This document shows, piece by piece, positions 27,660-55,284 of a stretch of DNA of 64,000 bases. This stretch comes from Rugalucina vietnamica (Eukaryota; Mollusca; Bivalvia; Lucinida; Lucinidae), in contig OZ024869.1 of assembly GCA_964017185.1 (NCBI GenBank), forward strand, positions 64,680,931 through 64,744,930. Reading direction: 5' to 3'. A program made the position numbers and the translations under genes. A model generated the notes under the pieces. It saw nothing but the letters and a program-made list of their open reading frames with translations. It was not told where the DNA came from and did not search any database. Positions within the stretch are counted from its first letter, which is position 1. Every line of letters begins with the position of its first letter.

Positions 27660-27736
27660 ATATATACAGTGTATATATAGTTTAAAGCACATTTTGGGTG
27701 TCATGACATCCTAATGTTGTGTAGTAGTCCCATTAA

Positions 27737-47006: not shown

Positions 47007-47218
47007 GTGATTGATGTTCACTTTCGCATTCAGACTCAGAGCAGGTCACATTTCCACACTTTCTGGGGTATTTGTAAATTTATCATTTCCATATACAGTA
47101 AAGGGTACTATTCTACTTTTGAAACAAGCTGTAAAATTTAGAAAATCTTAGAGAGCTAGCTAGCTCGGTAATGATGTTTGTTGCTGTCCATTTCATCCAT
47201 TTTCCTTTTGCATTTCAG

Positions 47219-47259
47219 GACAGAATGTAACCTGGTGCATTGATGTTACTGCTCCATGA
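47219..47259 (+). CDS. terminal exon with stop, same unrecognised gene
   Basis: A strong polypyrimidine tract (CATTTTCCTTTTGCATTTCAG) precedes. Joined to the phase-1 donor at 47006 it reads GQNVTWCIDVTAP, then TGA at 47257-47259. With the alternative donor the frame also ends almost at once. The transcription unit thus stops 35 bases before a Kolobok element, so its 3' UTR probably reads into that element. Confidence 0.55.
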
Positions 47260-47325
47260 GAAATTCTGTTCATATAACAAACAGGAAGACTTAAAGGGAC
47301 TAGAGTAAACTATTATATTTCTACG

Positions 47326-47331
47326 AATAAA
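47326..47331 (+). promoter_or_regulatory. AATAAA poly(A) signal inside the Kolobok terminal repeat
   Basis: The only AATAAA within 100 bases after the host gene stop (47257) lies 32 bases inside the transposon end, oriented with the gene. Confidence 0.45.
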
Positions 47332-47503
47332 TGATTTTATTTGGTGGTATTTAATGTCCTTATTAAGATCCCGTGAAGTATTTTGTTATTTTCTGTCGAA
47401 TTATGACTTTTAAATAGGTTTTAAAATCGAAATTCCTTATTTTTCAAAAAACGCTACCGCGGTTATCTCCCCTGAAAATCGATAACCTAGAGGGCGCTTA
47501 TAC

Positions 47504-47525
47504 CTGCTCTGTGACGTCACAGTCG
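47504..47525. promoter_or_regulatory. conserved CRE-like palindrome in Kolobok terminal repeat
   Basis: GTGACGTCACAGTCGAA occurs at 47511-47527 and, inverted, at about 54390-54406. It is the longest perfect block between the two terminal repeats and contains the CREB/ATF core TGACGTCA. It could be a promoter element for the THAP exon or a transposase-binding site. Confidence 0.5.
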
Positions 47526-47640
47526 AACCTGAAAGTCTTCGAGAACCTGCGAGAGTCATTAAGCGTGTGTTTTTAAATGTGTGAAGTTACAATTAGTGAT
47601 TTAATTTATTAGAAAATTAATTATAATCATGGTTTTACAG

Positions 47641-47914
47641 ATTCTAAAACTCATAAGATTAGCATGTATCTAAAGCTTTCCAAAGAAGGAGAATGATAAT
47701 TCTCGCAGACAAGTTTGGATTAATTGCCTTAGCTACGAAGAAGTTCGCGCCGAATAAATATTCAACCCTGTGTGCCAAGCATTTTGAGCCAGTTCAAAAT
47801 ATCGAGAGTGCTGAACAAATTGGATATGGTGAAGATTTCCGATTGTATCCGGACGCCGTTCCAACCATTTCGAAAATCCCAACGACATCGGATGATCGGC
47901 AAAACACGAGTTGA
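47641..47914 (+). pseudogene. Kolobok THAP-domain exon, decayed
   Basis: From 47693 the frame reads MIILADKFGLIALATKKFAP, NKYSTLCAKHFEP and then GYGEDFRLYPDAVPTISKIP. The LC..HF pair is the second half of the C2CH zinc site, and the AVPT box ends the THAP domain. The upstream piece (SKTHKISMYLKLSKEGE, 47643-47693) is in another frame and ends in a stop, so a frameshift separates them. The first zinc-binding cysteine pair is not visible. The frame ends at TGA 47912. The THAP domain is the DNA-binding part of such transposases; this copy is not functional as it stands. Confidence 0.75.
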
Positions 47915-48482
47915 ATCAGGTTTGTGTAACATTTCTCCTTTATTTCTACGCACATATACTTCCTGTGTAAAATAAAGATATATAATATGCTGGATTCCCA
48001 TGCTCTCTGAATAACTTTTAAGATCGATGTGATGAAAAATACAGACAACACCTATCAGAGCAAAATTGCGGAACTGAGCCAGGTGTGGTGATGCAAATGT
48101 ATTCTTTTTCTATTCTGTTCGATTCTTCAATTTTACGCGCGCAATCTTATTGCGGGCGGATTTTGATCATTCGGTTCCATTTGTTGAGACGTTTTCCGGT
48201 TCAGTTTCCCTATTTATTTTCTTCAAAGACAACGGAATAAGATTTTTTTCTTCGATCGAGAGTGCTTTATGATGATAAGAATGCTAAAGAAAAAATTAAG
48301 AATGTGACGCTAGCTCCTAAGTAAGTGTAACTGATTGATATCATAAATGGCATGAGATTTCGTGTCTGTTGTCAATCATGTCAACAAATTCTGATGCAGG
48401 AAATCCAGTGTCAATGTCAACACCCTTTATTTGGGGCTTTAGGTAAGCTTCGGCATGCACACAAGCCATAAACAGACTGCAT

Positions 48483-48540
48483 GAATAGTGGTGAAATAAT
48501 GTCATTTGGCGTGTCACCAGTAAACTATTCAGATTCAGTT
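48483..48540 (+). repeat. LINE 3' tail fragment in Kolobok
   Basis: AATGTCATTTGGCGTGTCAC and CAGTAAACTATTCAGATTC match the other LINE tails. Confidence 0.7.
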
Positions 48541-48599
48541 TGACCGAAGTTCTGATAGAGAATAGAAAAAAATTCCAAAGTGTATAGGTAATTGGCTGA

Positions 48600-48810
48600 T
48601 TGGAGCAAACTGGCGCAGGGGTAGAGTGGTTGACTCCGATAAGTGGAACAGACTGACGCAGGGGTAAAGTGGACTCCGGTCGCAGAGGTAACGGGTTCAA
48701 TCCTCAGCCCGGACGTTTTCGTTGTGGCCTTGAGCAAGTCGCATTGCCACAGCTCCTGAGAAAGCCTCCTGGTACCATTTCTCGAATGGGACCAACTCTC
48801 GAACAATAAT
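48600..48810 (+). mobile_element. tRNA-derived SINE (family C), nested in Kolobok
   Basis: The tRNA-like head occurs twice in part (ACTGGCGCAGGGGTAGAGTG and GACTGACGCAGGGGTAAAG), with box B-like GGGTTCAATCC. A body with TTGTGGCCTTGAGCAAGTC is shared with 15941-16075. Confidence 0.75.
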
Positions 48811-49045
48811 TTGATTTATACCAAATAAAACAAAATCTGGTCCAAATAAAAACATTTTGGGCAGGTTTTCTTTCGTCAGTCAATGGGTGTCAGCCTCGTT
48901 TTGGATTTCCCTAGCAGTCAATGGAAATCGCCCAAAATCAAAGCAAAATATATTACTCAGCTTGCTTGACAATAAATTCTCTGCAGAAAAACATTCCTGA
49001 ATTCCATTTTTTTATGCTGTCTCATGCCAGAACGTCAGGAAATTA

Positions 49046-49272
49046 AACATGTCCGTGTAATGTATAACCCATGAACCCCACTTTTATGTAGCAAAACTGG
49101 GGTATGCAGGGGTATATCTATTTTTCTTAGTTTTGCTCCAAAACATTGATTGTGAGTACTCGTTAGAACCGCCTCGGCAAGGCGGTTCTTACGTGTACCC
49201 ACAATCTATGTTTTGAGCAAAAATAAGAAATTTTTCGGCTGAAAATTTTCAATTTTTAAAGCTCAAAAAATC
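49046..49272 (+). mobile_element. hairpin MITE (CATGTCC family), long hairpin
   Basis: ACTCGTTAGAACCGCCTCGG and AAGGCGGTTCTTACG form the clearest central stem of the family, and the stem extends to AAAACATTGATTGTG / CACAATCTATGTTTT. Confidence 0.85.
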
Positions 49273-49436
49273 TCTGTTATGTTTGTATACACCCCTGTGA
49301 AAATACAGTGCCCGTGAAAATCACATGAGTGACAAGACAGTTTTTATTTCGCTCTTAACTGCTCGGCCGGGGGGGTAGGTCGCCTTTACATAATGTACAT
49401 GTAGAAGAATTACAGGTACATGTTTTACACTTACAG

Positions 49437-49575
49437 GGTACAAACCATATGCAGAGTTAGAGAAGGTCGTGAAGGGGCGTCTGCTAGTCAATGACATAAA
49501 GAAACTCTCTCACTGGAGTCGTTCCATAACATCGTGTGTCACAGTCCACTACTTCTACTCTCAGATGGAAGCATG
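49437..49575 (+). pseudogene. Kolobok transposase-like exon 1 of C-terminal part
   Basis: The acceptor TTTTACACTTACAG precedes and the donor GTTAGT follows. The frame reads GYKPYAELEKVVKGRLLVND, IKKLSHWSRSITSC and then VTVHYFYSQMEAW. From memory this resembles a THAP-linked transposase family with a motif like KLEK, then a TS.LE.FH segment. Here the expected acidic residue of that segment is not seen (TSCVTVHYF), which would remove a catalytic residue if the alignment is right. Joining to the next exon through the visible sites gives a stop, so the copy looks inactive. Confidence 0.6.
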
Positions 49576-49948
49576 GTTAGTTTACACTGATACCTTTATT
49601 ACAAACACGCAGTTGTTGTCAGTCAATCTGTTATTATCAACAGGAGTCACATGTACATGTCCGTGCTGATGAGGTATTGATAATTTTATTAAAGTTTGAA
49701 TCGCCACCTAATCAAAAAAAGTAATGTGATCGAAGCTGTTGTTTAAAAAGTTGAATGAGCAAGAAACTGTTACAGGTTCAAGGTTCCTGATTATTGCTTA
49801 CTTTAACCTTTGCATGTTCTTACCTATAACCCAATACTCTGATGCTCATTCAATGATGGTGTTAAAGTATTCAATGAGTCGAATTATTCAGTCTACCAAG
49901 TCATGAATTGAAGCAGTCTAATCAGAATTTTTTTTCATGTACATGTAG

Positions 49949-50097
49949 ATTGGCGTTGGCAGCACTGCATTTCAACGAAAACACTGGTAGAGCGCAAGCT
50001 GTGACGAAAGATGGCCAGCCTCAGTTCAAGATCGCATTCCCCAAGTCCACACATGGTGAAGCAGTAGCAAAAGAAATCAAAACACAGATGTCTTTCG
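49949..50097 (+). pseudogene. Kolobok transposase-like exon 2
   Basis: The acceptor CATGTACATGTAG and a good donor GTATGT at 50098 bound an open frame reading LALAALHFNENTGRAQAVTK, then DGQPQFKIAFPKSTHGE and KTQMSF. The LAALH.NEN.R.QA segment followed by a FPK block is, as I recall, typical of the C-terminal half of THAP-linked transposase proteins abundant in cnidarians and molluscs. About 15-20 residues normally between the previous exon and this one seem absent. Confidence 0.7.
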
Positions 50098-50379
50098 GTA
50101 TGTTGTTTTACATAAAACAGTTTTGTATGTAATATTTTACATCTTTGGTTTAAAATATACTTGGAACCACTATGGCATCGTGGTTATAGAGCTATCTGCG
50201 TTTTAATCTTAAAGGGTTTTTATCTCATTCTTTGGTTTCTCTAGTATTTTATGAGACTTTAAAATTAAAAACCTTTCCTGTTTGGTATAACCTTAGCTGT
50301 TGATGGAATATTAAATCAAGACACGACAACAAATGAAAATCACAAGTTGCAACTGAAGATTGATTCTTTGTTCTTTCAG

Positions 50380-50669
50380 GTTATGTTGAAGAACTGATGG
50401 AAGTCCTACTAGAGAAAAAAAAACTGAATAAGAGTTATGCAAGAGCTAAACTGCACAACAGCCTTGTGATTCCCATGACACCAAAGCCAATAGCGCACAG
50501 CACCCCGGGACCCAAACCACAGCAAAGAAGAGGTTTTCAAGGCACATATTGCCAGATTCAACAAATCAAAATGATTCAGGCTGGACTGGATAGGTGTGAG
50601 ATTTGTAGATACTATTTGCATAACAAAACAAGTATTAAGCTTGAATCATGTACACTTTACAGTATGTGA
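50380..50669 (+). pseudogene. Kolobok transposase-like exon 3 (C-terminal)
   Basis: The acceptor TTGTTCTTTCAG joins in phase with the previous exon: GYVEELMEVLLEKKKLNKSY, then a proline-rich PMTPKPIAHSTPGPKPQQ and IQQIKMIQAGLDR. The frame stays open to the stop at 50667-50669, with a possible earlier donor (GTGTGA) at about 50594. The GYVEELM block continues the family match from exon 2. Confidence 0.65.
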
Positions 50670-50837
50670 TCTGTTTTATTAGCCAGATCTTTTGTCATTG
50701 AAGAGTATGCAATTTATTGCTTTTGTGTATTTATAAATACATTCACACTGTAATATACGGAATTATTCTTAGTGTGAGCAGGTTGAGGGGAGTTTGATTG
50801 TCTTTAGTGAAATTAATTCTCCATAGTACTGATTTTT

Positions 50838-51053
50838 CATTACGAAAACTTGCCCATGCAATGTATACAGATTTTTTTTAAATTGCAAAAATTGAAAATT
50901 GAAACCGCGGCAGTTCTAACGGTAGAGTACCTACAATCTATGTTTTGGAGCAAAAACAAGAAAAATACGTATACCCCTGCATACCCCAGTTTTACTATAT
51001 AAAAGTGGGGTGAAGAGTGTATTCATTGCAAGGACATGTTTTCCTGATGTTTA
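50838..51053 (-). mobile_element. hairpin MITE (CATGTCC family), complete copy
   Basis: Starts CATTACGAAAACTTGCCCAT and ends GACATGTTTTCCTGATG, giving inverted termini. The central hairpin is shortened. Confidence 0.8.
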
Positions 51054-51450
51054 CTGACAGGGGTATAATGTTAAACCACAACAAAACCAATTGAGCAGCG
51101 ATGCAAGAATTCTGGTCTTCTGGGATTTCAGCCGTTTGACACAAATTACACTTAGTCACAGCAGAAGGTCTCTGATTTAAGAAGAATAGGAATTGCACTA
51201 TCTGAGTTGGGAAAACAAAGGTGATGATCAGCTGTGCAGTTACTCAAAGCTGATCTTCACCTTTATTAAAATTGCCTAGGCATGTCAAAGATACATGTAT
51301 GTACACATGTATCTTGTTCAATATGATACACGTCAAAATCAGTTGCTTTTCACATGCATTTGTAAATACAAGAAATTGTACATACAATTTTAAGGCTTGA
51401 ATTTTAATTTTACTGGTATCTAAATCTAGTTCGATTTCACCATGGATTTG

Positions 51451-52387
51451 TTAGCTCACATGCGCCGAAAGCTCACAAGGTGAGGCGTCTGTCGTCGTCG
51501 TCCACAATTTCAAAGATCTTCTCCTCTGAAACCCCTTGGCCAATCAAAGCCAAACTTCATGTGGAGCATCCTTAGGAAGGGGGAACAAAAGTGTATATAA
51601 ATGGTCCATGTCACATGACCAAGATGGCCGCCATGGCTATAAATAGCAAAAACCTTTAAAAATCTTCTTCTTCAGAACCAGAAGACCTATGATTTTGAAA
51701 TTTTGCATGAAGCATCAGTGAAGGGTTTATACAAATCATGACCCTGGGATGACCTTGACCTATTTTACTGCAAGGTCAACTTTGGTAGCCCATGCATTTG
51801 CATGTGGGGAAAATTGTTAAAATATGATTTGAAGGGCAAAACATGCAGGAAATAAGCAGATGGACAGAATATGGGGTTGTCTGCCCCTGCCCAAGGGCTA
51901 TATACATGTATATGACCATAATATTCAAACATCTTCTCCTCTGAAACCGCTTGGCCAATCAAAGCCGAACTTCATGTGGAGCATCGTAATGGGCAATGAA
52001 TGTTTGTATAACCTTAAAAATCTTCTCCAGAACCAGAAGGCCTATGATTTTGAAACTTGGCATGAAGCATCAGGCAATGGGGCTCTACAAAGTTTGTATA
52101 AAGCATGACCCTGGGATGACATTGGCCTTTTTTACGGCAAGGTCAACTTAGGTTGCCCATGCATTTGAATGGGAAAATTGTTACAATGTCATTTGAAGGG
52201 CAAAACTTGCAGTAAATTGGCAAATGGACTGAATCTTCATGATTTACAAAAGAAATTGACCTCAGAGGTTGCTCTGACTCTGCCCTGGGGTTATATACAT
52301 GTATATTACCATTGTAGTCAAACAACTTTATTGGTATATATCTCAGGTCTCAGGTGAGCGTTTACAGGACCATTGGTCCTCTGGTTA
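51451..52387 (+). mobile_element. GCTCACCTGAG/GGTCAAGGTCA repeat, nested in Kolobok
   Basis: Starts TTAGCTCACATGCGCCGAAA and ends GGACCATTGGTCCTCTGG. It has two body modules. This copy arrived after the Kolobok insertion. Confidence 0.82.
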
Positions 52388-52575
52388 TAATTTATACCAG
52401 CACTCGTTTTTTTTTAAACATATATACTGTTTTAATACGGGGTTGTCAATAGAGCAATGCACACCAGAACAGTTGATACTTCATGTGTATATTCTTTTAT
52501 CATATTTATCTTGCTGGCAAACACATTTGCTCATCTATTTTCAGATTCCTGTATTTGCATTTAGCCATTTACATA

Positions 52576-52791
52576 TGAGCCGCCTCATAAGAAAACCAAC
52601 AATGTGGTTTCCGAACAGGTTTGACTCAAACCGAGCTGTATAGCTAGAGGCTTGAAATTTTGAAAGTAGAGGAACTGTACTATCCCTGTAGCAAAAACAA
52701 AGGCGCTGATCACCTTTGCAGTAATGGCGAAGCTGATCCGCGCCTTTGTTTTTGTATGTGCATATTGTTGGTCTTCTCATGAGGCGGCTCA
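52576..52791 (+). mobile_element. TGAGCC-GGCTCA MITE, TA TSD
   Basis: Ends TGAGCCGCCTCATAAGAA and TTCTCATGAGGCGGCTCA are inverted and bordered by TA. The interior carries GTAGCAAAAACAAAGGCG and CGCGCCTTTGTTTTTG as an inner inverted repeat. Confidence 0.88.
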
Positions 52792-53030
52792 TATATAAGA
52801 CATTATAGTTTGAGGCACTGATTTTTCTTTTGAAGAAATTGTCAGTTTAAAAGTTTATAAATTTGAATAAAATAACATATATTGAAAGATGCTTGTTTTT
52901 ATTGCAAGCCATTCTTCGACCTTTATGAAAATATGTAATACAGTACTTTCAATGCAAATATTGCCAATGAGTGACAACTGAAATTTTTGCCAAAGAAGCA
53001 CTTCTAGTAACCGAACTGATGCTTCTTATA

Positions 53031-53235
53031 TATATCGGAGCGCGGTGGTATTAGTGTAGTGTGTCGGACTCCGAATCCCTGTGTTCAATCCCCACAAGCG
53101 GTACCATGTTGTGTCCTTGAGCAAGACACATTAACTCCCTACAGTACTGGTCAAACCCAGGAAGCATGGGCTCCATCCAGACATGTTTGAAAATTTGTTG
53201 ACTGAGAAGTTAAGCCTCAATCCAAACAAACTTAT
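53031..53235 (+). mobile_element. tRNA-derived SINE (family B-like)
   Basis: Head GGAGCGCGGTGGTATTAGTG with box B-like TGTTCAATCCCC, then GTGTCCTTGAGCAAGACAC and GGAAGCATGGGCTCCATCC. The 3' end resembles AATTTGTTGACTGAGAAG. The minus-strand relative is 57390-57612. Confidence 0.78.
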
Positions 53236-53309
53236 TTATTTAAATCTAAAGAAGAATGACCTCTGTGTATCGCTTTTCAAATCTAAAAATCTACATGTCA
53301 AGTGTTGGT

Positions 53310-53570
53310 TAATGTCTCACAAACAGCCATTGGTCATATCATAGAGACGGGAACTAGGTTACATTTTCATGACTAAAGAAGCCCGGGATCAAACTCACAA
53401 CCACGGTTTATAAGGCGAGCATCTTTAACAGCGGCGCAATAGAGGGTTGGCTTAGGATACAAGAGAAACCCGGTTCGATCAACAGGTAAGCAGAATTTTT
53501 CTTCGCCTGTTTAATTATCTGCTTTGCCACAGAGTACATTCTGACCAGGACGTTAAACATCATAAGCATC
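53310..53570 (+). repeat. tRNA-derived SINE fragments (family E)
   Basis: GAAGCCCGGGATCAAACTCA and CAGGACGTTAAACATCA are recognisable pieces of SINE families in inverted and direct order. Confidence 0.5.
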
Positions 53571-54350
53571 ATTTAAGATGGCATTTTCTACTATAATAAA
53601 TTTTCAGGATGAAGTTTGCCCCTTTTACTGTGTTTATCCCGTTGGACTAAGTGTGTATATCCAAATTGAGTTCTGTCATATCACATTCACCGACTGGAGT
53701 TGCTCTTGATGTATTGAAAACGTGTTTCTCTAAAATTACCAAACCTGAATACAAAATATTAAATCCCTTGATGCTCCGATTGAGCTAGAGAGAGAAAGAG
53801 AGTGATAGATTTCCGATACAGCAAAAAATATCCCAGCCTGTATCATTAATCTGATTTTCAGTCAAATGAGGAGTTTGGCAGGGAGAAATTCTAAATGCGC
53901 CGTTTTCTATATATTTCAAAATGGTCATGGAAATGCACGATCGTCTCGAAAAGCATCCATGATTTTTAGGCAGTTTCTTTCAATATGAATCCGAGATTTC
54001 GGAAACCTGGTCCTCGCAGTTGCGCTTTTTCATTATAATTTTGTAATATTTAGGATATTCGTATGTAAAATCGGATAGGCAGCTGCGTGGCCAAAATAAT
54101 TCAAACAATTTATTTGCACATTCCAGTGCCCGATGCGGCGCGTTTTTGATATTTTGTATTAGTCCGATGAATCGAATGATCGAGTTCGTCAAACTGAAAC
54201 GCATTTAATGATGCAAAATATTCATAAGATCACATGAAAATCTTTTGATTTTTATTCGATTCATACTGGTATTATCATAAACCCCACAAAAAACGCATAT
54301 TTTCGAATTTTAACTTGTGATTTCGACGCTCTAATTTCGATATTCGCGCA
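53571..54350. other. Kolobok interior or inserted DNA, unannotated
   Basis: No further transposase exon was recognised here. Confidence 0.35.
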
Positions 54351-54604
54351 AAGAACTATACGGCGCCATATTGGTCCATATTGGTGACCTTCGACTGTGA
54401 CGTCACAAATCAAAGGGAAATAACTCAAATTTCAAAGACGGCAAGGGAAATAACCGATGTTCGATTTTAAGCTCCCCAAAAATAAATGTTTTAAATTAGC
54501 GCACACAAAATCAAAATTTTGTTAGAAAAATCGACATAATGTATTTATTAGTTATTGTTCTTTCATATACAAATGGATTTAGGACTTTAGAATAGTCCCT
54601 TTAA

Positions 54605-55284
54605 ATTACAACAGCGAAAACTCAGAAATTGCTAGGATAGAACATATACCTACCTTGTGACAAGGCCTTATGTAGATTTAAAAGAAAAAGAAGGGAAAAG
54701 TAAATCAAGTGCCGGATGACAACCTATTTGAAAAATAAAATCATAGCAATCTATGCAATGAATGCCAACTGATTTTGTTAGTTTAATATACTTACATTAT
54801 GATTTCAAAACAGGAAAATCAAATGAATTACAATGTTTGTGAAAAAATCTTGAATCCTATACTGAGAATGCTAAAATCAACTACTGAATTGTGTAAAGTC
54901 AGGGTCAGTAGCAGTCTAGTAGATTTTCTGGAGTTGTAGGATGTGAAACTCATGAAAAATTGACCTGTTGAAAGAAAGTTTTCTGTTAGATAGAGTGTGT
55001 TACCCATAATGACTGACTGGATTCTTCAAGAATATAGCCAAAGCTGCTGACTGATAGGATAACATGGGATGACTCGATCCTTTAAACTGTGGAGAAACCT
55101 AGGGCCTCAAAGAAAACTTGAATGCGAACAATGACTGTAGGAGTGTATTTTAAATGAAAATTAGTGATAGAAGTACAATGTACATGTATTATGAACTACG
55201 TAAAAAAAGATTCCAGTGATCCACAGTTGCAGTTTGCAAAATTGCAAAAAAGTTACCTTTTAGTAATCAAGTACCCACACTTGT
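54605..55284. other. unannotated DNA right of Kolobok
   Basis: No gene seen. Confidence 0.35.

Follow-up and report, generated by a model that had tools for sequence, protein, structure and literature searches.

What kind of history produced a transposon copy that has broken genes and nested repeats and yet exact ends? The window, the whole stretch of 64,000 nucleotides from Rugalucina vietnamica, contains such a copy. The first-pass annotation described it as an old Kolobok-type element packed with later insertions. The Kolobok assignment, the exact ends, the THAP remnant, the exons and the missing middle all stand; "old" and "later" do not. With a probability of about 90%, this is a young non-autonomous copy of the Kolobok superfamily, in which the catalytic exons were lost, repeats were nested, and the resulting unit of about 7.3 kb then moved to at least four unrelated sites.

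Boundaries, target sites and ends

The boundaries and terminal regions are as follows.

47291..47294, no strand: TTAA target site, left (read directly in the window)
54601..54604, no strand: TTAA target site, right (read directly in the window)
47295..54600, + strand: probable non-autonomous Kolobok copy, 7306 bp (second copy of full length on C4, 97.6% identical; C17 copy in 94–97% pieces; flanks unrelated)
47295..47594, + strand: conserved left terminal region, up to about 300 bp (12 genome matches; 0–1 gap columns against L014, L015 and L013)
54240..54600, − strand: conserved right terminal region (13 genome matches)

AGGGACTA directly follows the left TTAA, and TAGTCCCT directly precedes the right one, in agreement with the exact, TTAA-flanked ends annotated earlier. 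In the 64-kb window, TTAAAGGGACTA occurs twice without mismatch, at the two ends of the element; a third place, at 27725, has one mismatch. The 4-bp TTAA target-site duplication, seen in the window copy and in other copies in the genome, and the termini 5'-AG...CT-3', which are of the RR/YY type, both correspond to Kolobok. Ordered inverted blocks had been noticed in the terminal regions of about 240 bases, and they are real: the two 250-bp ends reach a local score of 39.5, while the best of 1000 dinucleotide shuffles reaches 32.0 (0 of 1000 reach 39.5). The innermost block common to both ends is TGTGACGTCACAGTCGAA.

In genome searches with the element ends, other copies terminate at the identical AGGGACTA/TTAA boundary, and the annotated ends were not refuted by copies ending elsewhere. 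The left end (47293–47600, 308 bases) gave 12 matches, eight of which span 295–308 bases at 97–100% identity; the remaining four cover only 270, 175, 111 and 62 bases. The right end gave 13 matches over 361–364 of 364 bases, 12 at 91–100% and one at 82%. Of the 11 left-end loci displayed, 10 have TTAA 5' of the left end. The display of the remaining one, L006, covered the wrong side, and the larger locus containing it, L013, does have TTAA. TTAA also lies 3' of the right end in all eight loci displayed (L020–L027) out of the 13 right-end matches.

Coding remnants in the window copy

Inside these ends, five features concern the coding capacity.

47708..47911, + strand: THAP domain remnant, in-frame C-terminal half preceded by pieces in other frames (PF05485 match; THAP genome-search hit C1:64728638-64728841)
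49276..49385, no strand: site of the missing sister-element stretch, about 6 kb with catalytic exons (alignment to L013rc)
49436..49588, + strand: C-terminal transposase exon piece 1 (genome search; compare C16:15.2M (L039) and C17)
49941..50105, + strand: C-terminal transposase exon piece 2, LALAALHFNENTGRAQ... (genome search and comparison with sister copies)
50346..50543, + strand: C-terminal transposase exon piece 3 (genome search)

The C-terminal half of a THAP domain, noticed earlier from the sequence, matches Pfam PF05485 with an E-value of 6.2e-5 and 24.1 bits, just above the cut-off of 23.9. The domain expected of Kolobok is thus partial in the window, and it is complete in the copy at C8:749765 (E 3.1e-16). 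The three transposase-like exons are also confirmed: all of them match sister copies (63 genome matches including the window's own), and one aligns to residues 522–570, the tail, of a 641-aa open reading frame (ORF) elsewhere in the genome (L060; 49% identity, E 9e-9). In exon piece 1, the LESFHN segment of the sister copies is not read in this frame. A Pfam scan of the three exon pieces and the other window pieces scanned returned no family at a meaningful level. Neither Rfam, for 47200–54700, nor ARAGORN, for tRNAs in the whole window, gave any hit.

The middle is indeed missing. Neither the genome search with the sister core nor the alignment to the core of the 641-aa ORF gives a match to the transposase core in the window copy, and roughly 6 kb are absent relative to the sister at C16:15.2M. 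Window position 49275 corresponds to L013rc 3848, and the alignment resumes at window 49386 (C16:15222550, L013rc 9982). The left edge of this gap is soft: 49045–49275 is itself a dispersed repeat, and outside the repeat the homology stops at 48733 (L013rc 3221).

Sister copies and the transposase core

The exons have collinear counterparts, at 80–94% identity per aligned piece, in sister copies on C2, C4, C11 and C16. The core was searched with 182 aa of a sister core, the part with the first D only, which gave 56 matches. Three sisters (C2:10.9M, C16:15.2M and C11:29.5M) contain this exon at 99–100% amino acid identity to the query; the five window-type copies and C4:48.8M have no hit. The second D, the DxxH and the zinc-finger stretches were read in C16:15.2M, the one sister copy followed further.

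Kolobok transposases have a DDD/E triad with C/DxxH between the second D and the last E, and H2CH residues between DxxH and the last E, following excerpts of PMC6004289 and PMC9587614. The motifs are GGD, TDRH, FDVWH and LESFHN in C16:15.2M, and GGD, TDRH, FDVWH and LEVYHN in the 641-aa relative, both assigned by motif rather than by alignment to a named Kolobok transposase. Both also contain NHMYW...HEGH...CxHG, an H2CH-like series of putative zinc-finger residues between DxxH and the last E.

The 641-aa relative (L060, C2:36635268, at 1030–2955) is an uninterrupted stop-to-stop Kolobok-like ORF, distantly related and in the same genome. Its core, about residues 87–471 with GGD, TDRH and FDVWH, aligns to C16:15.2M and does not align to the window copy or to the C4:6.4M, C17 and C16:1.07–1.12M copies. 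The THAP genome search gave no hit beside it. Pfam returned a weak Mutator-like hit only (E 1.2e-5, 24.9 bits, under the cut-off of 26.5), and comparison with solved structures gave nothing useful (best E 0.3).

The order of domains was counted over 45 THAP, 56 core and 63 C-terminal hits, lists which are lower bounds for large families. A core follows THAP on the same strand within 20 kb for 22 of the 45 hits; this count takes in both halves of one split THAP as separate cases. The order THAP, core, C-terminus on one strand is found for 20 of 45. No THAP hit among the 45 has a nearby core on the opposite strand or lies downstream of the core. Judged from the sequences, THAP, core and C-terminus would be one gene family, exons included, and the exons of the window belong to it rather than to an unrelated host gene. 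At about L013rc 1045–2236 in C16:15.2M (L013), a reverse-transcriptase-like ORF, recognized by eye, splits the THAP exon.

The search for elements with both ends and an intact THAP protein, proposed in the first-pass annotation, gave other copies with the ends; among the best-scoring candidates of the genome search, fetched in part, no copy combines the two ends with an uninterrupted THAP and the core. THAP is present without a core hit in C8:749765 and C7:56679440; the C2 and C11 sisters contain the core exon and have no THAP hit. Since no complete copy was found, a helper element is inferred.

Nested repeats and window-type copies

Within the element, at least six stretches recur in the window: 48489–48541, 49031–49275, 50838–51052, 51448–52387, 52569–52799 and 53078–53229. 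The earlier count of five or more insertions is therefore right as far as nested repeats are concerned. That they came later is contradicted by a second copy, on C4, which aligns end to end over 47291–54605 at 97.6%, runs through all six stretches, and has its own TTAA and unrelated flanks. Because the C4 copy carries these nested repeats too, the repeats were already inside before the last move of the unit. We take 48585–48760 and 53033–53240 (GGGTAGAGT and CCTTGAGCAAG) to be candidate tRNA-SINE-like stretches.

One of the repeats was compared with a repeat-free site, this being the only nested stretch for which such a site was examined.

51455..52406, no strand: dispersed repeat nested before the last move of the element (repeat-free site in sister C2; further copies in the window)

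Sister C2 has no such repeat at the corresponding place, and the alignments of C4:48.8M and C11 skip it as well. All five window-type copies contain it, including C4:6.4M, C17 and the two C16 copies (C16A and C16B). Its presence in the five and absence from sister C2 indicate that it entered before the unit spread. The window stretches without cover by the compared sister pieces are 48734–49044, 49276–49385, 51455–51499, 51873–52383 and 52773–53106.

The further window-type copies are on C17 (pieces at 94–97%) and on C16, where two form a head-to-tail pair (C16:1.07–1.12M). The 500-bp flanks of the copies do not match in any of six left and six right pairs. Over the right ~4.9 kb, the window copy (C1) differs by substitutions from C4 at 52 of 4882 positions (1.07%), from C16B at 56 of 4887 (1.15%) and from C17 at 97 of 4807 (2.0%). 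C16A and C16B differ by 0.28% over 4339 sites (4.3 kb for C16A). Age is relative here, based on substitution percentages.

Explanations for the spread

If the element were a decayed Kolobok insertion of great age, with repeats gained only after landing, the frame-broken coding pieces and the identity of only about 80–94% to the aligned sister pieces would be natural. This is very unlikely, and we reject it on account of the C4 copy, which lies elsewhere, has the nested repeats as well and is 97.6% identical overall. A segmental duplication between C1 and C4 might rescue it, but the 500-bp flanks of the two are unmatched. Segmental duplication or another host rearrangement, rather than transposition, could also have spread the 7.3-kb unit; one of the head-to-tail C16 copies, only 0.28% apart over 4339 sites, may be a plain tandem duplicate. 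As a general account this is highly improbable, since the C1, C4 and C17 copies and the C16 pair start and stop exactly at AGGGACTA/TTAA within unrelated flanks. That the element is a piggyBac-type transposon is suggested by the TTAA target site, and its probability is practically negligible: the element has 5'-AG...CT-3' (RR/YY) ends and a THAP domain, the sister core has the DxxH signature, and the pieces scanned contain no Pfam match to piggyBac transposase.

Recent transposition of a deleted, repeat-laden unit is thus preferred. A THAP-DDE element would have lost its catalytic exons through internal deletion and acquired nested repeats afterwards. The ~7.3-kb unit would then have been cut at its AGGGACTA ends and inserted into TTAA at at least four unrelated sites. 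The window-type copies share exact ends, TTAA and internal repeats, have unrelated flanks and no core, and sisters bear the core. Movement in trans is most likely: a transposase from a sister copy would read the common ends, its THAP domain perhaps binding the conserved terminal regions. An old-looking copy, with broken genes and nested repeats, can therefore be young, as nested repeats travel along.

Comparison with known Kolobok elements

The traits of Kolobok are TTAA, 5'-RR/YY-3' ends, C/DxxH, a zinc finger and THAP (PMC6004289, PMC9587614, excerpts). The THAP domain is usual in the superfamily (PMC6004289), and the RR/YY ends distinguish it from piggyBac (PMC9587614). TTAA, RR/YY ends and THAP support the earlier Kolobok-type assignment, to which the core motifs of the sister may add and which is based on traits and not on a tree; the family would be related to named Kolobok elements by description. 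The unit would be a new subfamily of a known kind. Among the molluscs surveyed in PMC10294476, as excerpted, Kolobok occurs almost exclusively in bivalves, and the curated library has 43 Kolobok elements.

As far as the excerpts of PMC6004289 describe it, XKol of Xenopus is similar in its TTAA target, AG-starting ends and length of many kb, in a THAP domain with an AVPTIF box (here in the C8 and C7 copies), and, judged by motif, in its core motifs and putative zinc-finger residues (here in C16:15.2M). Unlike XKol, the window copy has no core, has nested repeats, and has inverted blocks extending ~240 bp inward. The listed XKol lengths are 6.8–13.9 kb, against about 15.6 kb for the sister C16:15.2M. 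T2-MITE, a presumed non-autonomous Kolobok in the same source, likewise has ends without its own enzyme gene, and AGGRR termini, whereas the units here are 7.3–27 kb. KolobokP (PMC9587614, excerpts) is also a Kolobok of molluscs with known head-to-tail multimers, but it has long terminal direct repeats. None is seen here, the best direct repeats among the matches listed being 13/13 bases within a palindrome and 29/43 (E 0.046 each), and the C16 pair shares only TTAA.

Terminal regions and interior

Aligned to L014, L015 and L013, the left end of the element shows 0–1 gap columns in its first 300 bp and at least 40 in the 180 bp that follow. Substitution identity per 60 bases drops from 92–100% in the first 300 to 86–96% in those 180; the contrast between end and interior thus consists mainly of indels. 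The terminal regions, almost free of indels next to a degenerate interior, hint at the cis sequences required by the enzyme. In three left-end copies (L016, L017 and L018), similarity is lost beyond about 270, 175 and 110 bp; the full 300 bp is therefore not kept by every copy, and the enzyme may not need all of it. In L019 (C11:37209896-37210681), ~0.8 kb long, a THAP region is joined almost directly to the right end, and its first 245 left-end bases do not match.

The head-to-tail pair on C16

Copy A, part of whose interior is duplicated, measures about 27.4 kb and copy B about 18.4 kb; they lie head to tail with one common TTAA, and the 20-base junction between them is found at a single place in the genome. 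A simple tandem duplication could account for the pair, as could insertion into the TTAA of a neighbour, a circle product or an assembly error. It is conceivable, albeit rather unlikely, that it records a tandem-dimer route for Kolobok elements without terminal direct repeats, one such route being by way of an excised circle whose ends abut. Such a circle could recombine with a resident copy or re-insert at it. Among the papers listed on head-to-tail Kolobok, or on nonautonomous, subterminal and MITE elements of Kolobok, no title or abstract opening describes a pair of this type.

Copy B corresponds to the 7.3-kb form plus three blocks of 2.26 kb, 7.3 kb and 1.3 kb. The larger C16 copies were considered as holders of the missing transposase and rejected: the 7.3-kb extra block has a FLYWCH match (E 2.7e-8) and two weak MULE matches under the cut-off, and it is read as a putative nested Mutator-like passenger. 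No 8–9-bp target-site duplication of this block is evident by eye. The nested block L009/L030 (C16:1105754-1113030) matches FLYWCH, has weak sub-threshold matches to MULE and PHD, and carries ~121-bp inverted ends. The C16 copies thus hold 18–27 kb, including the apparently Mutator-like nested element, between well-kept ends.
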